Shown here: one piece after another, positions 2,934-20,507 of the stretch
Position numbering within the stretch: the first letter of the stretch is position 1
Layout of the letters: the number at the start of each line of letters is the position of its first letter
Made by a program: the position numbers and the translations under genes
From: Clostridia bacterium
GTDB taxonomy: Bacteria; Bacillota; Clostridia; Christensenellales; Borkfalkiaceae
DNA length: 41,143 bases
Reading direction: 5' to 3'
Assembly: GCA_017504655.1 (NCBI GenBank)
Contig: JAFVQT010000015.1
Coordinates: 1-41,143 of the forward strand
The notes under the pieces: model-generated
Seen by the model: only the letters and a program-made list of their open reading frames with translations
What the model was told of the DNA's origin: nothing
Database searches by the model: none

Positions 2934-3899
2934 ATGTCAAATAATAAAGTCGATATAAAAGAAAATTATATTCGGGATTTAGACCAAGAATTGCTGTTGC
3001 TTCTTCTATTAGACCAAACAACCAAAAAGAATTTAATTTGGGCGACAGACAATTACAAAGCCTATGGTTATATGTCTTACGACTACATTACTGTGGCTGC
3101 TATTACAGGTTATCGTGGTTGCGTTATTAAACCCCGAATTGAAAAATCAAAAGCCGAGATACAAAAGCGTGTCAAGGATAAAGCAGAAGTGTTTACACCA
3201 GCTTGGGTTTGCAACGCACAAAATAATCTTGTGGATATAGCTTGGTTTGGATATCAACCCGTATTTAACGTTGAAACAAATAATCATTGGGATACTATAA
3301 AAACAAAAATTAGTTTTCCAGAAGGTAAGACTTGGCAGGATTATGTAAAGGCTAATCGTATGGAAATATCCTGTGGCGAAGCTCCGTATCTTGTTAGCAG
3401 ATATGATTCAGTTTCAGGTGAGATTATACCGTTAGAAGATAGAATTGGCCTGTTAGATAGGAAAGTTAGAATTATAAATGAAAATGTAAACTCTGATGAA
3501 GAATGGTTAGAGTGGGTAAAATGGTCTTTCAAAAGCGTATATGGTTATGATTGGCAAGGCGATAACGTTTTATTGGCAAGAGAAAACTTATTGTTCACGT
3601 TTATTGATTACTACGTTGCTCGTTTCGGACAGCACCCTTCAACTAAAATTCTTTTAGAAATAGCAGAGATAATTTCTTGGAATATATGGCAAATGGATGG
3701 TCTGAAATTTGTGATTCCAAACAGTTGCCATTCTCAAAAACCAATACAAATGTCGTTGTTTGGTGATGAACCAGAAGAACCTTGTATTGGGTGTGTAAAA
3801 AATAGTATAAAACAACATAACGGAATTTATTGCAAAATAAAAGATTGGACTACGGGTAGAGCTAATAAGTTTGTTAATCTTATTGGGAGGAAATCATGA
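2934..3899 (+). CDS. Restriction-modification subunit carrying part of an adenine methylase
   Basis: This 321-residue protein resembles proteins annotated as restriction endonuclease subunit M. Visible blocks are EVFTPAWVC at 85-93, like methylase motif X (FTP), CGEAPYLVSRYD at 147-158, RIGLLDRKVRI at 170-180, and DWQGDNVLLARENLL at 206-220, like the SAM-binding side of gamma-class N6-adenine methylases. No NPPY motif is present here; it is in the next gene, which overlaps by four bases (ATGA). The two proteins are therefore likely to form one enzyme. Near the C-terminus QMSLF (272-276) matches the beta-clamp binding consensus, and Cys284, Cys287 and Cys300 could bind a metal. GAGG lies 7-8 bases before the start. 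The assignment is good at family level; the split-domain model is inference. Confidence 0.7.
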   Translation: MSNNKVDIKENYIRDLDQELLLLLLLDQTTKKNLIWATDNYKAYGYMSYDYITVAAITGYRGCVIKPRIEKSKAEIQKRVKDKAEVFTPAWVCNAQNNLVDIAWFGYQPVFNVETNNHWDTIKTKISFPEGKTWQDYVKANRMEISCGEAPYLVSRYDSVSGEIIPLEDRIGLLDRKVRIINENVNSDEEWLEWVKWSFKSVYGYDWQGDNVLLARENLLFTFIDYYVARFGQHPSTKILLEIAEIISWNIWQMDGLKFVIPNSCHSQKPIQMSLFGDEPEEPCIGCVKNSIKQHNGIYCKIKDWTTGRANKFVNLIGRKS

Positions 3900-6800
3900 A
3901 AAACCAATTTCATTCAACATTTGAATATAAGTTAATATATGTTTTTCGTATAAATGATGAAAACCACAAGAATTTAGTAAAAATCGGTGATGCGACAATT
4001 CATACTGATTGCTCTTATGATGCCCTTGTGCCTAATTGTAAAGAATTAAATCAAGCGGCAAAAGCCAGAATCAATACATATACTTCTACCGCTGGTATTG
4101 TTTATGAATTATTGCATACGGAAATTGCTATTAGGGTTAAAAACGGTCAGCTCAAAGCATTTAGAGATAAGGCTGTTCATAGTGTTCTGATTAGATCGGG
4201 CGTTAAACGTCATTTATTCCCAACGGAAAGTCAAGGACAAGAATGGTTTGAAACGGATTTAGCTACGGCAGTACGTGCCATTCAAGCTGTCAAAGATGGT
4301 ATGTCTTCATTAAATTCCGAAGATATATCACAGGATGATTCGCCTATAATTTTTAGACCAGAGCAAAAGAAAGCAATTAAAGATACACTTGCGCAGTTCA
4401 AAAGCGGTAATAGAATGCTTTGGAACGCAAAAATGCGTTTTGGTAAAACGCTCTGTGCTCTTGAAGTAGCAAAGCAAGCAGATTATAAGAAAATTCTTAT
4501 ATTTACACATAGACCAGTAGTTAGTGACGGTTGGTTTGATGATTTTCATAAGATTTTCAAAGGAACTACATATAAATTTGGCTCTAAAACTAAAGGTGAA
4601 ACAATAGAAACACTTATCACAGAAGATTGTCCTTTTGTGTATTTTGCTTCTATTCAAGATTTACGTGGTTCTGCTGCTGTTGGTGGAAAATTTGATAAAA
4701 ATGATTACGTCTTTTTAATCGACTGGGATTATATTATCGTTGACGAAGCACACGAAGGAACGCAAACAACCTTAGGACAAAAAGTTTTAGAGGCAGTTTT
4801 AAGCAATAATCCTAAAAAAACTCCGAAGTTACTTGAACTTTCAGGAACACCTTTTAATCTTCTTAATGATTTCAAGCAAAGTGAAATTTATACTTGGGAT
4901 TACATTATGGAGCAAAAGGCAAAAGCCGAGTGGGGTATCAATCACTTTGGTGACTCTAACCCGTATGAAGAATTGCCACAACTTGAAATATTTACATACG
5001 ATTTGGATAAGCTTATTCCGGGCTTTATTGACGTAGAAGATAGTGCCTTTAACTTTAGGGAATTTTTCAGAACTTGGACGGGAGATATTAAAAAAGATTA
5101 CAGACCTCTTCCAGAAGGCGCAAATATTGGTGATTTTGTGCATAAAGATGACGTTAATGCTTTTCTTTCTTTATTATGCACAAGTGATGAATATACAAAT
5201 TTCCCTTATTCTACCGAAGAGAACCGTTCTTATTATAGGCATACATTGTGGATGCTACCGGGCGTGAAAGAAGCCAAAGCTCTTTCTGCTTTAATGCACG
5301 AGCATCCTGTGTTTGGTAACGGACAATTCTTTAAGATTGTCAATGTTGCTGGTGACGGTGATGAAGAGCAAAACTACAAAGATGCTTTAGATGCTGTTAG
5401 AACTGCTATTGGTGAGAATCCAGACGACCATTATACAATTACCTTGTCTTGTGGCAGACTTACAACCGGTGTTAATATTCCTGAATGGACTGCGGTATTT
5501 ATGCTTGCAGGTTCTTTCTCTACGTCCGCAGCAAATTATTTGCAAACAATATTCAGAGTACAAACTCCTGCAAATATCAATGGTAGAATGAAAACACATT
5601 GCTCAGTGTTTGATTTTGCTCCTGATAGAACTCTTAAAATGGTAGCAGAAGCTGGTCATTTATCATTAAGAACGGGCAACGTTGGTAATGATAGAATATT
5701 GATGGGTGAGTTTTTGAATTTCTGCCCTGTTATTTCGATATCGGGTTCAAATATGTCGCCTTATAATGTTGATAGCTTGTTACAACAGTTAAAGAGAGCT
5801 TATACAGATAGAGTTGTAAAAAGCGGTTTTGAGGATACACATATTTACAATGATAATCTTCTTAGACTTGACGATATTGACCTTCAAGATTTTGAAGAAT
5901 TAAAGAAAATAATTGGTGCAACAAAGCAAACCAAGCCTACGAGTGAAATCGTAATAAATGATACAGGCTTGACTGATGAACAGTATGAAGAATTAGCACG
6001 CATCGAAAAGAAGAAAAAGAAAGACTTAACGGAAGAACAAAAAGCACTTCTTGAAGAACGCAAGAAAAAACGTGATAATGCTCAAAAGGCTATGGATATT
6101 TTGCGTGGTATTTCTATAAGAATACCTTTAATGATTTATGGCGCAGATATTCCCGTTGATAAAGACATTACGCCTGATAATTTTGTGGATTTAATAGATG
6201 ATTCCTCTTGGGAAGAGTTTATGCCAAATGGTGTAACGAAAGAAAAATATAGGCTTTTTGCAAAGTATTATGAGCAGGACGTCTTTGTTGCAGCTGCACG
6301 TCAAATTCGTCAGATGGCATTGTCAGCTGATGACCTTGCTCCCACTGAACGTGTTAAGAAAATTGCTGAAATATTCAGTATTTTTAGAAACCCAGATAAA
6401 GAAACGGTATTGACACCTTGGCGAGTAGTCAATATGCACCTCAGTGATTGTTTGGGTGGATATAGATTCTTTAATGAAGATTATACTGATACATTGGACG
6501 AGCCTGTATTTGTTGACCGTGGCACAGTAACAACAGATTTGTTTAAGAACAATGACGTTAGAATACTTGAAATAAATTCTAAAACTGGTCTTTATCCTCT
6601 TTATGTTGTATATTCTATATTCCGTCATAAAATGGATAGTTTATCTAAGTATGATTACGAGCATAGACCTATAGATGATATTTGGCGTGAAGTGGTTGAA
6701 GAAAATTTATTTGTTATCTGTAAAACTCCTATGGCTAAGGCAATTACGAAAAGAACGTTGCTCGGCTATAAGAGAGGTAAAATAAATGCACACGCTTTTG

Positions 6801-7915
6801 ATGATTTAATAAATCAATTAAAAGAGAAACCACAGCAATTTAGAGAAAAGGTATTAAGAGGAAGTTTTTGGAACAAAGGAGTGAGAAATATGGTGTTTGA
6901 TGCAATAGTAGGCAATCCGCCTTATCAAGAAGCGGTTAGCAGTAGCGATTCCAATAGGTCATTAAGTAGGCAATTATTCCCTGAGTTTATGAAAGCCTCT
7001 ATTTTGCTAAAACCTAAATATGCTTCTTTGATTACGCCTTCCCGTTGGTTTGCAGGTGAAGCTCAAGATGGTTCTTTTATATCTTTAAGAGAGTTCATTC
7101 AGTCAAATAACCATATTAAAAAAATTACACATTTTCCTGTTGGAAATGATGTTTTTGATAATGTAGTTATTAAAGGTGGAGTAAGTTATTACCTCTATGA
7201 AGAAGGATATGTTGGAGAAGTAAGTTTTTCAAATTCTCGAAACGGAGTATTGATAACTCAAGATAGACCGTTGTTTGAAGAAGGTTTGGATATTATTATC
7301 AGTAATAGTGATGATGTCGAATTGATTTCCAAAGTTACAAAAGAAGGTTTTGTATCTTTGACGACCATTACAAAAGGGAGAAATGCTTTCGGCATTATTG
7401 GAAAGCCCGAAGTATTACGTAAAATAATCCATAAAGAAAAATTTGTTGGTGCGGTTAAATTACAATGCAAAAACGAGGAGATTTATTGGGTTGAAGCAAA
7501 AGAAATAATTAAAAATGAAGATTTAATGAGAAAATATAAAGTATTTATCTCAAAATCGGCTGGAGATCCTTCAAAAGACGCAAAAGTAATTGGACGAGCT
7601 TATGTGGGCGAACCTTTTAGTGCTTGTTCCGATTCTTTGATACCTATTGGTGATTTTGACAATTTGCTTGAAGCAGAGAATTTACGGAAATACTTATCGA
7701 CTAAATTTTTGCGATATATTGTAAGCATTTTGAAAGTTTCGCAGAACGTTACTCAAATAGTTTACAAATTTGTTCCTATGCAAGATTTTACGGCGCATTC
7801 TGATATTGATTGGACTAAATCTGTTGCAGAAGTAGATCAACAGCTTTATAGAAAATACAATTTGTCAGCGGAAGAAATTGCCTTTATTGAAGAAAAAATC
7901 AAGCCTATGGAGTAA
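3896..7915 (+). CDS. Fused nuclease-helicase-adenine methylase restriction enzyme
   Basis: The 1,339-residue protein has several parts. Residues 1-140 look like a T5orf172/GIY-YIG-type nuclease (LVKIGDA, KARINTYTSTAG, then EWFET). Residues 150-560 form an SF2 helicase-translocase with motif I AKMRFGKT (178-185), DEAH (283-286), SGTP (316-319) and motif VI QTIFR (550-554). After a lysine-rich linker comes the methylase motif IV NPPY (1007-1010) with a following region that would hold target recognition. Enzymes of this layout translocate on DNA, methylate the host site and cut unmodified DNA. The SAM-binding half appears to reside in the preceding gene. The start follows GGGAGG. A SIR2-like gene begins three bases after the stop. 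Confidence 0.8.
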   Translation: MKNQFHSTFEYKLIYVFRINDENHKNLVKIGDATIHTDCSYDALVPNCKELNQAAKARINTYTSTAGIVYELLHTEIAIRVKNGQLKAFRDKAVHSVLIRSGVKRHLFPTESQGQEWFETDLATAVRAIQAVKDGMSSLNSEDISQDDSPIIFRPEQKKAIKDTLAQFKSGNRMLWNAKMRFGKTLCALEVAKQADYKKILIFTHRPVVSDGWFDDFHKIFKGTTYKFGSKTKGETIETLITEDCPFVYFASIQDLRGSAAVGGKFDKNDYVFLIDWDYIIVDEAHEGTQTTLGQKVLEAVLSNNPKKTPKLLELSGTPFNLLNDFKQSEIYTWDYIMEQKAKAEWGINHFGDSNPYEELPQLEIFTYDLDKLIPGFIDVEDSAFNFREFFRTWTGDIKKDYRPLPEGANIGDFVHKDDVNAFLSLLCTSDEYTNFPYSTEENRSYYRHTLWMLPGVKEAKALSALMHEHPVFGNGQFFKIVNVAGDGDEEQNYKDALDAVRTAIGENPDDHYTITLSCGRLTTGVNIPEWTAVFMLAGSFSTSAANYLQTIFRVQTPANINGRMKTHCSVFDFAPDRTLKMVAEAGHLSLRTGNVGNDRILMGEFLNFCPVISISGSNMSPYNVDSLLQQLKRAYTDRVVKSGFEDTHIYNDNLLRLDDIDLQDFEELKKIIGATKQTKPTSEIVINDTGLTDEQYEELARIEKKKKKDLTEEQKALLEERKKKRDNAQKAMDILRGISIRIPLMIYGADIPVDKDITPDNFVDLIDDSSWEEFMPNGVTKEKYRLFAKYYEQDVFVAAARQIRQMALSADDLAPTERVKKIAEIFSIFRNPDKETVLTPWRVVNMHLSDCLGGYRFFNEDYTDTLDEPVFVDRGTVTTDLFKNNDVRILEINSKTGLYPLYVVYSIFRHKMDSLSKYDYEHRPIDDIWREVVEENLFVICKTPMAKAITKRTLLGYKRGKINAHAFDDLINQLKEKPQQFREKVLRGSFWNKGVRNMVFDAIVGNPPYQEAVSSSDSNRSLSRQLFPEFMKASILLKPKYASLITPSRWFAGEAQDGSFISLREFIQSNNHIKKITHFPVGNDVFDNVVIKGGVSYYLYEEGYVGEVSFSNSRNGVLITQDRPLFEEGLDIIISNSDDVELISKVTKEGFVSLTTITKGRNAFGIIGKPEVLRKIIHKEKFVGAVKLQCKNEEIYWVEAKEIIKNEDLMRKYKVFISKSAGDPSKDAKVIGRAYVGEPFSACSDSLIPIGDFDNLLEAENLRKYLSTKFLRYIVSILKVSQNVTQIVYKFVPMQDFTAHSDIDWTKSVAEVDQQLYRKYNLSAEEIAFIEEKIKPME

Positions 7916-11891: not shown

Positions 11892-12899
11892 TTACCTCGC
11901 AATTATGTCCTTTCCAAAGATATTTAAGAGCCAATCAGGTACTTTCAAAGACGGTCTTTCAATCTCGTGAACTTCACCGTTTTCGTCAACGTAAGTAAAT
12001 TCGTCAATCCAATGCTTTTCAGGCTCTTCCGTCTTTTTAACTCGTTTTTCCAATACCTGAATATCGTCTTCCTTTTCAACGATTACAATGTCGTAATTGT
12101 AATGTAATTTAAGGAAATACTTTTCAGAGCAGTGATAGGGGAAACCAACCATAGGAACACGGCTTTCTAATCCGCAATCACGTCCCGTAAGGGTTAATTC
12201 CAGCTCGTCTGCTATGAGTTTTGCATTATCGCCTAAAACTTCATAAAAGTCGCCTAAACGATAAACAACGATAGAGGATGGGTATTTGCTCTGTATATCT
12301 AAATACTTGCTATAAAACGGACTTAAAGGCTTTGCAGGAGCAGGTTTAATTTCTTCTTTGTGAAGTTCAGCCATAATTTCCTGTATTTCTTCCTCAGACG
12401 GCATATCGTCATCTTCGTCAACCGTCGTTTCTGTTTTGATGGTAGGTAAGGTGTCCGTTTCTTCACCGTTAGCGGCAATCATATCAAAGAGAGAAAACTG
12501 TGCTTGAGGTTCAGCTTTCTTTTTCGGCGCAGGAGTAGTAACGGTGGTAGTGGTTTTTGCTTTTTTAGTTTCTTTCTTAGGCGGTGTATATGGCGTTCCG
12601 TCAAGGTTGAAATAATTACCTTCGATAGCATCTTCTTCAAAGAAGTGTATCAGCCAGCCGAATACGACCATATCATCAACGTAAGTTCCAATAGCACCTT
12701 TATCAGCCAACTTCTTAGCTTCTTCAAGTGCGTATTTCATAAAACCTTTAAGGTCTTTTTTCATAATGAGCGTAGTTCCGTCTTTTTCAACGGTAACGCC
12801 GTTATTGATTTTTTCTGCAAGGACGTCGCTTGCATTTTCTTCTAAATATTTCAAAAGGCGTAATTCGTCGTTTCCTTTTGTTTCAAGATTGATTTTCAT
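11892..12899 (-). CDS. pcfK: PcfK-like protein fused to a MutS mismatch-recognition domain
   Basis: Residues 1-107 are PcfK-like (DLKGFMKYALEEAKKLADKG, then VVFGWLIHFFEEDAIEGN). A lysine/threonine/proline linker follows, containing QFSLF (134-138), a close match to the beta sliding-clamp binding motif. Residues 192-276 match MutS domain I: YRLGDFYE (213-220) holds the Phe-x-Glu used to read mismatches, followed by LTLTGRD, RVPMVGFPYH and a closing strand. The MutS clamp and ATPase domains are absent, so this cannot be a complete repair protein. It precedes the PcfJ-like gene by five bases. A DNA-structure or clamp-guided role in transfer or replication of the element is inferred. Confidence 0.75.
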   Translation of the reverse strand: MKINLETKGNDELRLLKYLEENASDVLAEKINNGVTVEKDGTTLIMKKDLKGFMKYALEEAKKLADKGAIGTYVDDMVVFGWLIHFFEEDAIEGNYFNLDGTPYTPPKKETKKAKTTTTVTTPAPKKKAEPQAQFSLFDMIAANGEETDTLPTIKTETTVDEDDDMPSEEEIQEIMAELHKEEIKPAPAKPLSPFYSKYLDIQSKYPSSIVVYRLGDFYEVLGDNAKLIADELELTLTGRDCGLESRVPMVGFPYHCSEKYFLKLHYNYDIVIVEKEDDIQVLEKRVKKTEEPEKHWIDEFTYVDENGEVHEIERPSLKVPDWLLNIFGKDIIAR

Positions 12900-16309: not shown

Positions 16310-16873
16310 TCACCTCCGTATTTCAACAATTCCACCTGAGTATTCTCTAAAACCGTCATAGGACAGTTCTTCGCCATACCGGGCGTAGTCGATATAATTC
16401 TCAAGCCAATCAGGTATTTCGTGACAGCAGACGTCGTGAATAAAGTGGTGTCCTAAGTCATACCAATCAAAATCGGGGTAGAGGTACATATCGCTATCCC
16501 AATTTTCTTCATCTTCTTCAACACGGCGTTTCCATTCCTGATAACCTTCGATTTCACAAAAGATTTCAGCACGCTCGTATTTATCGTCATCGTCTAAAAT
16601 GCCAGACTTTTTAAGCAGTTCAAATAGCGTTTGTGGGTGAACGTAATCCCAATTAACGCCGCTATCACAAGGAAAATTCTCAATGTCCTGTATGAAAAGC
16701 TCTTCATCAATACCGTCAAGCTCAAATCCCTGTGCTTTAAGTTCTTCTTCGATTTCTTCCCAATCTTCATAATTGTTCAGACAAATCCATTTAGAGCCTA
16801 AAGCTCTTTCGTTACACTCGTTATACGAACCCCAAGAGCCGATAACTATTTGAATATCGTTACTTCTAATCAT
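16310..16873 (-). CDS. ardA: ArdA-like antirestriction protein
   Basis: The 187-residue protein has the ArdA layout: an N-terminal strand VIGSWGSYNECNERALGSKW followed by the acidic helix DWEEIEEELKAQG, a middle HPQTLFELLKKSGI segment, and the C-terminal IPDWLENYIDYARYGEEL block typical of the third domain. It is very acidic, as expected for a DNA mimic. ArdA proteins occupy type I restriction enzymes and protect incoming mobile DNA. I start it at ATG 16873 with AAGGAGGT just before; the longer frame to 16930 runs through a small upstream gene. Carriage beside the element's own restriction system is notable. ArdA annotation is strong, the exact target enzyme unknown. Confidence 0.75.
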   Translation of the reverse strand: MIRSNDIQIVIGSWGSYNECNERALGSKWICLNNYEDWEEIEEELKAQGFELDGIDEELFIQDIENFPCDSGVNWDYVHPQTLFELLKKSGILDDDDKYERAEIFCEIEGYQEWKRRVEEDEENWDSDMYLYPDFDWYDLGHHFIHDVCCHEIPDWLENYIDYARYGEELSYDGFREYSGGIVEIRR

Positions 16874-16964
16874 CGTAATTACCTCCTTCGATAGCGATTT
16901 TTTCTTCGATACGGTCTTTTGCTTCTTCAAGCAATTCTTCTAAATCCATAATAGGCTTATCCAT
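16866..16964 (-). CDS. Very small acidic protein, 32 residues
   Basis: ATG 16964 overlaps the upstream stop by one base (TAATG) and is preceded by AGGAGGTG. The frame encodes MDKPIMDLEELLEEAKDRIE and ends in EGGNYDD, overlapping the ArdA start by eight bases. It predicts a single acidic helix. It may be a real micropeptide or a coupling leader that carries ribosomes into ardA. Confidence 0.4.
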   Translation of the reverse strand: MDKPIMDLEELLEEAKDRIEEKIAIEGGNYDD

Positions 16965-17519: not shown

Positions 17520-17887
17520 TTTTTGAATACCTCCAAAATTATTTATTAGCCTTGCGGCAGGGGCTAAGTATCACTGAGAAAAGCCCGAATTTTGCAGTCT
17601 TATGTAGCGTCCCACGAAAGTCAACGAGAGAGGACAAAAATATTGCGTGAGTATAAAAAAAGAGCTAAGCTCATAATCGAGCCTAACTCTTGAAAGTATA
17701 TATAATGTTTTAAGCCATATTTTTTCCCGTTTACTTTCGCTTTTATCTGTGATACAACGACACAAACGCAAGGCAATAATTTTGGAGAAATTAAAAGTGC
17801 GAATAAGGTAGGTAATCTCTCTTTACTTCTCAATATTCCAAGAATGCAAGGGTGCAAGAATATCAAGAATTTCAATAGGTGTTCAGT
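17520..17887. other. Gene-free region at the probable right end of the element
   Basis: This stretch holds the leader and presumed promoter of the minus-strand operon, a leader hairpin TTAGCC/GGCTAA (17546-17567), and a strong minus-strand terminator (17659-17692). A short region follows with three CAAGAAT direct repeats and an ATATTC/GAATAT inverted pair (17833-17863). A weak promoter-like TTGACT occurs on the minus strand around 17,622. No convincing gene is seen. The LRR fragment starts right after, so an attachment site near 17,830-17,890 is plausible but not proven. Confidence 0.4.
17659..17692 (-). terminator. Minus-strand terminator upstream of the accessory operon
   Basis: Read on the minus strand, AAGAGTTAGGCTC pairs with GAGCTTAGCTCTT around a six-base loop and is followed by a run of seven T. 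It would stop transcription entering the element from the LRR side. Confidence 0.7.
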
Positions 17888-18276
17888 TGAGGTCTTTAAC
17901 GGGTGCGTTCTCTTGTTGCTCAAATTTAAAAATCGTAAAAATCCCTAATAGTGTAACTAAAATAAAAAAGTCTGCGTTTTTATATTGTTCTAGTTTAACA
18001 AGCATAGTAATACCTAATAGTGTAAGAACAATGGGTGAAAGAGCGTTCTCTTCTTGCCCCAGTTTAACAAGCGTAGAAATAAGCGAAAGTGTAACTACAA
18101 TAAGCAGAGATACGTTTGTGGGTTGCTATAAGTTGGCTATTTATTATAATGGTGACAAAATACCAAGAGGTTTCGAAAAAGGATGGGATTGTGATCGCCC
18201 TGTTTACGTAAAGCGCAATGGCGCGTGGGTGCAGGTTAAAAAGACGTTTCTTGGCGGTTGGAAGCCGGTAAACTAA
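17888..18276 (+). pseudogene. Truncated BspA-like LRR gene (3' fragment)
   Basis: The frame reads as LRR_5 repeats without any N-terminal domain: SVTKIKKSAFLYCSSLTSIV, SVRTMGERAFSSCPSLTSVE, SVTTISRDTFVGCYKLAIYY, then the same basic tail as the next gene, ending FLGGWKPVN. The only start is an unlikely TTG with no ribosome binding site, and before it the frame no longer looks like an LRR. From 18061 to 18277 it aligns with 20292-20508 at a fixed offset of 2,231 bases with about ten differences. It is a 5'-truncated copy, left by duplication or by insertion of the neighbouring element. Confidence 0.75.
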
Positions 18277-18326: not shown

Positions 18327-20507
18327 ATGAGTAACGGAAATATGTGCTGCGAAAAATGCGGCGGCAATTTAACACTTAAGGGTGACGTTTACGTATGCCA
18401 TTATTGTAATAGCCAGTACGCAGATGTAATAATAGAAAAAGCATATAAAAAGCTCGAGTTTTCTTTAAGGGAAAAGTTTGGTGATATAGTTCAAGAAGAA
18501 ATTGTAAAAAGGGAGCAGGAAAAATTCCTCCCCCTTCTTCGCCAATTGTGGGAAAAATCTCAAGAAAAATATATCGACAGCAAGGCAATTCTTTCAATCT
18601 GTAGCAAAATAAAAGATATTTATCCCGATCACTTTTTAGCCAATTTTTACGAGGTGGCAAATAGCGGAACGGTTGCTCAAATCAACGAATTTTTAAATGC
18701 TATCGACGTTAAAGAAAATGCGATTTTCGTTGAAGACGTAGTAAGCTTTTTGGTAAAGTCACTCGAAATGGGCAACGTGGCTTCGCTTAACTATTTGGTA
18801 GAAAGGGCATATAAAAACACTAATATGGCAGAATTTGAGTCTTATTCAACAATGATAGAATCCGAGGCTCAAAAGGTAAACTCGGGCTTGTATAAAACCG
18901 ACCTCCCGAGGGACGTTTTTATTGCCTATTCCAGCAAGGATTTACCCGAGGTTTTAAAGCTTGTTGAGGTTATCGAGTCGCAGGGGCTGACCTGCTTTTT
19001 AGCAATGCGAAATTTGCGCCACGGCAGGGGCTCGGTTGCAAATTACGAGGCAGAAATACAAAAAGCAATAGATAATTCGGGTATAGTAATCTTTATTTCT
19101 AGCCGTAATTCTCGTTGTTTAGATTGCGATGCAATAAAAGTAGAAATACCATACATAAAAAAGAAAGATTTAGAAAACATACCTTTGGGCTATAAAAACA
19201 ACTATGCAGACGTAAGGCTTTTAGGTTATAAAAAGCCACGTATTGAATATCGTTTAGATAACGCCCCAACAATTTTAGCCGATAGAATATTAAAAGAATT
19301 TTTCGCAGGGCTTGAATACACAAAGTCGGTAGACGATACCTTAGAGCGCATTGCAAGCATTTTAACCGACGGCTTTGGCTCTCGCAATTTAGAAGAGAAA
19401 GAACAGCCTGTTAGAGGGTTAACTGAAGAAGAATTAAGAAAAATGCTTGAGCAAATGCAGGCAGATGAAAAGCGCAAGGAAGAAGAAAGGATAGCCGAAG
19501 AAAAGCGCAAAGCCGAGGAAGAGGCAAAAAGACTTGCTGAGGAAAAACGTAAAGCCGAGGAAGAGGCAAAAAGACTTGCCGAAGAAAAACGTAAAGAAGC
19601 AAAAAGGCTTGCCGAAGAAAAGCGCAAAGCTGAGGAAGAGGCAAAAAGGCTATCAGAAGAAAGGCACTTGGCAGAAGAAAAACGTCTTGCTGAAATAAGG
19701 CTTGCTGAAGAAACAAAACGTGATTGCATAATCAAAAATGGCAATTTATTGAAATATGAAGGTGTAAACACGAAAGTTGTAATACCCGATTGTGTAACAA
19801 AAATAGATGTTTCTGCGTTTTGTTATTGCAGAAGTTTAACAAGCGTTGTTATTCCCAATAGCGTAACGAGTATTGGTGAGGGGGCGTTCGAAAGTTGCGA
19901 CAGTTTAACAAGCGTATATTATACCGGTGAAATAGAGGATTGGTGCAATATTACGTTTAGTAATTCTTCTGCAAACCCATTAAATAACGGAGCAAGCTTA
20001 TATATAAATAACCAGCTTGTAACCGAATTAGTTATCCCAAATACTGTAACAGAGATAAAATCTTATGCTTTCTATAATTGCGGCAGTTTAACAAGCGTTG
20101 TTATTCCCAATAGCGTAAAGAGTATTGGTGAGGGGGCGTTCGAATATTGCGACAGTTTAACAAGCGTAGTAATAGGGGATAGCGTAACGAGTATTGGTAG
20201 TTCTGCGTTCTCTGGTTGCTACAGTTTAACAAGCGCAGTAATAGGGGGTAGCGTAACGAGTATTGGTACTTATGCGTTCTATCATTGCGAAAGTTTAACA
20301 AGCGTAGTAATAGGCGAAAGTGTAACTACAATTAGCAGAGATACGTTTATGCTTTGCTATAAGTTGGCTATTTATTATAATGGTGACAAAATACCAAGAG
20401 GTTTCGAAAAAGGATGGGATGGTGAACGCCCTGTTTACGTAAAGCGCAATGGCGCGTGGGTGCAGGTTAAAAAGACGTTTCTTGGCGGTTGGAAGCCTGT
20501 AAAATAA
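18327..20507 (+). CDS. Zinc-ribbon, TIR, coiled-coil and leucine-rich-repeat protein
   Basis: The 726-residue protein has four parts. A zinc ribbon uses Cys8/Cys11 and Cys24/Cys27. After a helical region to about 190 comes a TIR domain (195-300): DVFIAYSSKD, CFLAMRNLRHG, and IVIFISSRNSRCLDCDAIKVE, where Glu273 sits at the place of the catalytic glutamate of NAD-cleaving TIRs. A coiled coil of repeated AEEKRKAEEEAKRL-type units spans 365-465. BspA-type LRR_5 repeats (about 483-675) and a basic tail follow. No signal peptide or membrane segment is seen, so it is probably cytoplasmic. LRRs would sense and the TIR act, as in immune proteins, but that is inference. GAGG precedes the start. Confidence 0.8.
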   Translation: MSNGNMCCEKCGGNLTLKGDVYVCHYCNSQYADVIIEKAYKKLEFSLREKFGDIVQEEIVKREQEKFLPLLRQLWEKSQEKYIDSKAILSICSKIKDIYPDHFLANFYEVANSGTVAQINEFLNAIDVKENAIFVEDVVSFLVKSLEMGNVASLNYLVERAYKNTNMAEFESYSTMIESEAQKVNSGLYKTDLPRDVFIAYSSKDLPEVLKLVEVIESQGLTCFLAMRNLRHGRGSVANYEAEIQKAIDNSGIVIFISSRNSRCLDCDAIKVEIPYIKKKDLENIPLGYKNNYADVRLLGYKKPRIEYRLDNAPTILADRILKEFFAGLEYTKSVDDTLERIASILTDGFGSRNLEEKEQPVRGLTEEELRKMLEQMQADEKRKEEERIAEEKRKAEEEAKRLAEEKRKAEEEAKRLAEEKRKEAKRLAEEKRKAEEEAKRLSEERHLAEEKRLAEIRLAEETKRDCIIKNGNLLKYEGVNTKVVIPDCVTKIDVSAFCYCRSLTSVVIPNSVTSIGEGAFESCDSLTSVYYTGEIEDWCNITFSNSSANPLNNGASLYINNQLVTELVIPNTVTEIKSYAFYNCGSLTSVVIPNSVKSIGEGAFEYCDSLTSVVIGDSVTSIGSSAFSGCYSLTSAVIGGSVTSIGTYAFYHCESLTSVVIGESVTTISRDTFMLCYKLAIYYNGDKIPRGFEKGWDGERPVYVKRNGAWVQVKKTFLGGWKPVK

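Follow-up and report, generated by a model that had tools for sequence, protein, structure and literature searches.

The protein described here belongs to a family in which a zinc-ribbon/helical/TIR core stays fixed while the module at its C terminus is swapped, in some cases between closely related paralogues within a single genome. It is encoded in the window, i.e. the whole stretch of 41,143 nucleotides from a Clostridia bacterium that was analysed. The reading that we prefer, to which we assign a probability of roughly 0.45, is that the family comprises cytoplasmic TIR receptors in which a fixed output core is combined with an exchangeable sensing or anchoring tail, and which are tied to a membrane-damage or envelope-stress response. 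Sensor-linked TIR proteins are a known kind, of which the family is a variant; it is the family, more than the single window protein, that is of interest.

Domain structure of the window protein

The open reading frame was confirmed in the window, where its ATG is preceded, by reading of the sequence, by a putative ribosome-binding stretch (Table 1). An earlier note, made from the sequence alone, had described a zinc ribbon, a TIR domain, a coiled coil and BspA-type LRR repeats in one protein; all four are present, but the helical domain of residues ~33–190 had been overlooked. The two CxxC pairs (8/11 and 24/27) are as described, and the zinc ribbon gives a profile match to an RpoM chain (7oqy). 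Pfam detects TIR_2 (31.9 bits at residues 197–262, cut-off 28) and LRR_5 (1.1e-48); seven LRR units lie at 484–681, and the repetitive charged stretch at ~364–468 is apparent on direct reading.

Table 1. Features of the window referred to in the text
Feature	Position	Strand	Basis
Type II methyltransferase, then large IIG-type restriction enzyme (Eco57I, ResIII)	2934..7915		PADLOC MTase_II 7.7e-122
PcfK-like (at cut-off) and MutS domain I in one ORF, beside PcfJ gene	11892..12899	-	MutS domain I 3.6e-19
ArdA antirestriction protein	16310..16930	-	4.1e-14
5'-truncated LRR fragment without N-terminal module	17887..18276	+	In-frame stop upstream
Zinc ribbon-helical-TIR-coiled coil-LRR protein, 726 aa	18327..20507	+	ORF call, Pfam
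Zinc ribbon, C8/C11/C24/C27	18348..18407	+	Invariant in 28/28 aligned family cores
Helical domain, residues 33-190, family-conserved	18423..18896	+	AF2 core model, alignment
TIR domain, residues 192-349, family insert ~284-304	18900..19373	+	Pfam, alignment, AF2, VIA-align
Glu-273 codon, aligned with catalytic-Glu column of bacterial TIRs	19143..19145	+	Alignment
Charged repetitive coiled coil, ~residues 364-468	19416..19730	+	Sequence read directly; repeats D3/D4
Seven BspA-type LRR units (484-681), insert ~530-567	19776..20369	+	Pfam, sequence
C-terminal tail, residues 682-726	20370..20504	+	Sequence comparison

In agreement with the earlier note, the Pfam scan of the window protein gave no nucleotide-binding (NLR/STAND-type) switch domain, its only matches being LRR_5, TIR_2, LRR_8 and FNIP (E 0.01). 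The description of the protein as cytoplasmic-looking also holds, in that no export signal, anchor, transmembrane or other hydrophobic segment was found in it (19-residue hydropathy maximum 1.32 overall and 0.34 in the first 60 residues), and no export signal or transmembrane segment was seen, by eye, at the N terminus of the family cores.

Purifying selection on the core is indicated by dN/dS values of 0.11 (compared with paralogue C28) and 0.09 (compared with paralogue C58, with dS saturated at 2.2). An artefactual fusion is ruled out by this selection and by the recurrence of the core–LRR joining in several genomes; that the protein is a stand-alone oddity is likewise ruled out, by four paralogues in its own genome and by relatives elsewhere.

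Fold of the TIR domain and position of Glu-273

An AlphaFold2 (AF2) model of residues 1–349, built from 22 sequences (the window protein and named loci), has a pLDDT of 90.1 and a pTM of 0.82. The region that the earlier note had placed at 195–300 is modelled as a TIR fold, consistent with the TIR_2 match, but its limits require revision, since the fold spans ~192–349 and includes a family insert preceding the strand at 305–309. VIA-align comparison of residues 192–349 gives Z scores of 14.4 for IL-1RAcPb, 13.9 for SPARTA, 13.3 for AbTir and ~13 for SARM1, with the TIR domains of the plant proteins RPP1, RUN1 and RPS4 also among the matches. A 2'-deoxyribosyltransferase (Z 12.9) ranks among these TIRs, so that fold does not equal function. 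With Foldseek the best match of the core model was BtTir at E 0.0018, none falling below 0.001, and the second row was an unrelated cobalamin-binding domain.

In the model E273 sits in the helix formed by residues 268–283. Together with the four zinc-ribbon cysteines, it is invariant in 28/28 aligned cores, these being the scored rows of a 32-row alignment from which four copies of other loci had been excluded (two rows end before the TIR domain, and two of L007, left out of the count, both retain the Glu by eye). In a wider alignment of the TIR part with intermediate zinc-ribbon TIRs and plain TIR_2 proteins of the order, the column is Glu in 29/30 rows, the 30th stopping before it. A one-residue gap beside the Glu in L001 and an insert in L050 imply that the helix register at this position is not perfectly fixed. 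With that reservation, Glu-273 aligns with the catalytic glutamate of bacterial TIRs, as the earlier note had proposed, and on sequence grounds the window protein appears to resemble bacterial TIR NADases and SARM1 in having a conserved Glu in the 268–283 helix.

On assembly, the TIR domains of SARM1 and those of bacteria and plants cleave NAD+; some TIR domains are adaptors, and LRR and Sel1 repeats are of the interaction type. It might be proposed that the TIR domain of the family is a non-enzymatic scaffold, clustering on membranes or proteins via the repeats. The presence of LRR and Sel1 repeats in the family, and the ranking of adaptor and receptor TIRs with enzymes in the fold comparison, accord with such a role. 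The invariance of the Glu, in the core set and almost throughout the wider alignment, and the strong conservation of the 'CFxAMRNL' region across the family cores argue against it, and we regard a scaffold as improbable.

The TIR fold is shared with ThsB (of Thoeris), AbTir, the SPARTA TIR and SARM1 (Z ~12–14 for the latter three); none of these is known to have a zinc-ribbon/helical N terminus plus exchangeable C-terminal tails. In plant TIR-NLRs, as in the window protein, TIR and LRR regions occur within one chain; by contrast with them the window protein shows no nucleotide-binding switch in the Pfam scan, has LRRs of the BspA type and begins with a zinc ribbon. The likeness is a resemblance of layout, and descent is not claimed.

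Distribution of the family and exchange of its C-terminal modules

Searching genome contigs with the whole window protein gave no relative; a query with the core alignment gave 17 loci, in named records that are all Clostridia or Clostridiales metagenome-assembled genomes, several from animal gut. Among 101 genomes of the same bacterial family (own genome included), 24 match a four-row profile at E 0.001, many by the zinc-ribbon or TIR part only, and in the order, 31 of 396 genomes are found with a 28-row profile at E 1e-10, several of them by the TIR alone. At a strict threshold of E 1e-18, one genome in a class-wide sample of 391 matches, namely that of the window; the sample also contained genomes of the order and of the bacterial family that gave no match. 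Among the genomes sampled, the family was found only in one order.

On the same core Pfam identifies, as C-terminal regions, LRR_5 repeats, 2–16 Sel1 stretches, one or six DUF6273 domains, TM2 or a second TIR domain, as well as mixed tails (DUF6273 plus LRR_5; Sel1 plus LRR_5); TerD and transmembrane anchors are likewise counted among the modules. The LRR array, which the earlier note had cast as the sensor, is hence only one of several interchangeable modules, so that the family is not defined by recognition through LRRs. The genome of the window contains four copies of the core, of which three bear LRRs. The fourth (C33) differs in having a second zinc ribbon and the start of a coiled coil, with a TerD ORF following in another frame; this may be either one broken gene or two genes.

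Labels for the tails were assigned by hand from Pfam and a script, mixed tails being scored once (L043 4602 as LRR, L099 6551 as Sel1, L114 as TM). A 45-row core tree then carries 20 LRR, 12 TM (i.e. membrane-anchored), 9 Sel1, 2 DUF6273, 1 TerD and 1 TIR label. On this tree, which was built by a quick method and in which the long branches L103 and L120 are placed with little certainty, the label changes at least 13 times, compared with a least possible number of 5 and a mean of 21.9 in shuffles, implying that inheritance accounts for the tails in part and that exchange has occurred repeatedly. Exchange is not rampant, in that tails track the core tree better than do shuffled labels. Within one genome, the related cores L038, L039, L042 and L040 bear DUF6273, LRR, LRR and TM2 tails, respectively (SH-aLRT 90–92 for forks within the group), and the isolate RGIG5320 has both an LRR-tailed (L046, 7946) and a Sel1-tailed (L047) member.

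At L046 (61–16962), four zinc ribbon–TIR–LRR genes lie in tandem; phage-like genes (terminase-like, by eye) occur further downstream. In L054/L101 (G458) a second TIR domain follows the zinc ribbon–TIR core in the same protein. A second, zinc ribbon–TPR–TIR type with a different class of TIR is encoded in the same bacterial family at L018, L019, L020 and L025 (Pfam for L018 and L020), indicating that the combination of zinc ribbon and TIR is a broader theme.

No description of the family core, of its exchange of tails or of the domain order that the earlier note had thought might be undescribed occurred among the matches listed in open-licence full texts, a collection outside which most subscription papers and bioRxiv-held preprints lie; their novelty is accordingly provisional.

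The window locus and the LRR pool of its genome

The TIR gene of the window is solitary and lies between a mobile-element region and housekeeping genes, the latter including two downstream genes that, from our own reading of the translations, we take to encode YlxM and Ffh. Upstream are a Rep-type gene, the type II methyltransferase and IIG-type restriction enzyme, PcfJ, the PcfK/MutS_I protein, which is an odd fusion within the conjugative-element region, and, near the TIR gene, ArdA, which possibly marks the edge of the mobile element. The LRR-type copies (C28, C58 and that of the window) adjoin ftsY-like, ftsK-like and ffh-like genes, as read from the translations; this may be chance.

The truncated LRR fragment immediately upstream matches the end of the main gene at 169/177 positions over its last 177 nucleotides. 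It appears to be a partial duplicate or a remnant, and the identity suggests a recent duplication in the tail. A store of LRR cassettes for gene conversion was considered and rejected; the tail recurs only in this fragment and in C58 (47% identity), which a single partial duplication explains more simply.

BspA LRRs classically belong to surface proteins. The 1.78 Mb genome of the window has 67 LRR_5 matches, including those of the TIR copies, and among 11 other LRR ORFs read in 14 regions of the genome, each with two or more motif matches, 10 have starts that by eye are signal-like, nine of them lipoprotein-like. The window protein shares LRR_5 repeats with BspA-type surface proteins, but differs from them in having a TIR domain and no signal-like start. 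It may be that the tails of the TIR copies come from an LRR pool otherwise used on the surface. A role at the surface or after injection, directed at an animal host or at neighbouring cells in the usual manner of BspA LRRs, would accord with the signal-like starts of these other ORFs; for the window protein it is, however, very improbable given that neither a signal nor a transmembrane segment was found in it, that none was seen by eye at the N termini of the family cores and that genes of relatives lie with AAA ATPase genes.

AAA, coil, band-7 and trypsin-like genes near family members

Marker profiles were made from L095, L043, L050 and L035 and applied to the surroundings of family loci (26 close, 14 divergent) and of 14 control loci encoding other TIR proteins of the same order; core proteins were not counted as markers, and L115–L118 were dropped as copies of named loci. 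With cut-offs of 1e-20 for AAA, 1e-10 for trypsin and 1e-5 for the others, chosen after the first profile results were known, at least one marker is present near 10/14 divergent, 7/26 close and 0/14 control loci (Fisher p 8e-5, divergent versus control, a value that, as with all p values here, ignores kinship among loci several of which share a genus or genome). On omitting the four loci from which the profiles were made, markers remain at 13/36 family loci, compared with 0/14 controls (p 0.007). Flank lengths vary, being 6.9–16 kb for the control regions and 3.5 kb for L139. At a looser 1e-5 cut-off, AAA matches at E ~1e-11 appear also in the window, L101 and the control L138, and FtsK matches appear in the controls L136 and L137. 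At the cut-offs used for scoring, the window copy, over 41 kb, and 18 others of the 26 close loci have no marker.

Six divergent members labelled TM (L106, L107, L109, L111, L112 and L139) have a band-7-type gene no more than ~0.4 kb from that of the TIR protein, and for L114 the distance is ~5 kb. Near the C33 copy of the own genome are a TerD run, a coil gene, a coil–AAA gene with Vps4_C below the cut-off, a second AAA gene, a zinc-ribbon trypsin-like gene and a band-7 gene. The Ter-type run of this locus (L095, G000:C33, 2616–16473) contains three TerD genes and, by eye, a P-type ATPase-like gene. TIRs are stated to cleave NAD+, and TerD has been proposed to bind nucleotide derivatives, in the available part of PMC7159879.

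The nature of the AAA and coil proteins was compared with that of ESCRT components. Of nine AAA proteins scanned, Vps4_C exceeds the cut-off in one (L120, 21.5 versus 21.3), is below it in four (L095 9965, L106, L107 and L114) and is not among the best 25 matches listed for the other four; the second AAA protein of L095 is nearer to Cdc48/p97 (1e-53) than to Vps4 (1e-32) by phmmer. The model of the L043 coil protein (pLDDT 77.9, from two sequences) shows a long helical hairpin and two additional helices. Its best ten Foldseek rows are all archaeal ESCRT-III proteins (CdvB/CdvB2, five entries) at weak E values of 0.04–0.46, while VIA-align places BAR domains above ESCRT-III and does not separate ESCRT-III from BAR and other helical hairpins. 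Of the seven coils scanned, one gives a Snf7 match (E 0.22) and six give none. These neighbours are, with weak support, termed 'ESCRT-like', not ESCRT.

The loci of relatives may resemble ESCRT-III/Vps4-like and PSP/band-7 systems in containing AAA proteins of putative Cdc48/Vps4 type, predicted helical-hairpin coil proteins and band-7/zinc-ribbon proteins; the window copy itself differs from these systems in having no such neighbours at the cut-offs used. According to the available part of PMC11237479, PspA is found with AAA and band-7/zinc-ribbon proteins, and VPS4-like ATPases have been transferred to bacteria; 'Tir' there refers to the CesT/Tir chaperone, not to the TIR domain. ESCRT homologues are not identifiable in bacteria according to PMC10936438, in the available main text of which TIR, TerD and trypsin do not occur. 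TIR together with ESCRT-like genes was not described in any of the matches listed in open-licence full texts.

Discussion

The earlier note had interpreted the window protein as a minimal immune receptor and suggested a survey of its homologues near defence genes. A sensor-gated TIR output is plausible, but the genomic context of the family favours membrane or envelope stress no less than phage; the neighbours that recur are AAA, coil, band-7, trypsin-like and TerD genes, few of which were compared with a defence library. In a phage-sensing receptor the LRRs would recognise an intracellular phage protein, and the TIR would deplete NAD+ and abort infection. Several observations are in line with such a role, i.e. 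the resemblance, albeit weak, of the TIR to Thoeris ThsB profiles (PADLOC 1.5e-5; BcThsB 8btn 0.0014 by profile), the fold similarity to SPARTA, AbTir and SARM1, the restriction-modification, ArdA and conjugation-type genes upstream in the window, and the multi-copy, tandem and tail-exchanging nature of the family, which is how a recognition repertoire is expected to look. Among the ten upstream window proteins, PADLOC gave no match to the Thoeris partner ThsA. The nature of the recurrent neighbours and the membrane-anchored label of 12/45 members speak against the proposal, as does the absence of family matches, within the sensitivity of the searches, from viral contigs and from plasmid and phage records; no direct evidence of phage sensing was found, and we consider it rather unlikely.

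Under the preferred reading, of a cytoplasmic receptor family linked to membrane damage or envelope stress, the core (zinc ribbon, helical domain and a TIR with a catalytic-type Glu) would be joined by a coiled coil or linker to a C-terminal module that binds a protein or an envelope-associated ligand. Binding would cause the chains to cluster and the TIR domains to assemble, the assembled TIRs then consuming NAD+, whether to do damage or to produce a signal of the ADP-ribose type. The zinc ribbon and the helical domain may position or inhibit the TIR, which tail binding would switch on. That the coiled coil oligomerises the TIR, as the earlier note had it, is something we infer only. Where the TIR gene is part of an operon, the trigger may be damage to the membrane with which the AAA/coil/band-7 machinery deals; the LRR copies may read protein ligands. 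Because divergent members and one paralogue in the own genome lie near AAA, coil, band-7 and protease genes and, in the own genome, TerD genes, we infer that the family probably served at first as the output arm of a response to membrane damage or envelope stress, the dispersed LRR copies being diversified stand-alone receptors.

A more specific version is a TIR–ESCRT stress and immunity system, encoded by an operon (an ESCRT-III-like polymer, a Vps4-like ATPase, a band-7 scaffold, a protease and a zinc-ribbon TIR), in which the detection of membrane injury would lead to NAD+ consumption. The genome would spread duplicates of the TIR arm that carry different sensors (LRR, Sel1, DUF6273 and TerD), and these would constitute a diversified repertoire of intracellular receptors that has no nucleotide-binding switch. 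We hold this version to be doubtful, though conceivable.

If the preferred reading is correct, bacteria too build receptor families from a fixed TIR output core and an exchanged sensing tail, and do so without a nucleotide-binding switch, and TIR enzymes would be tied to an ESCRT-like membrane module. Two questions then become open to direct test, namely what it is that BspA-type LRRs recognise in the cytoplasm, and whether bacterial TIR activity can be set off by damage to the membrane.
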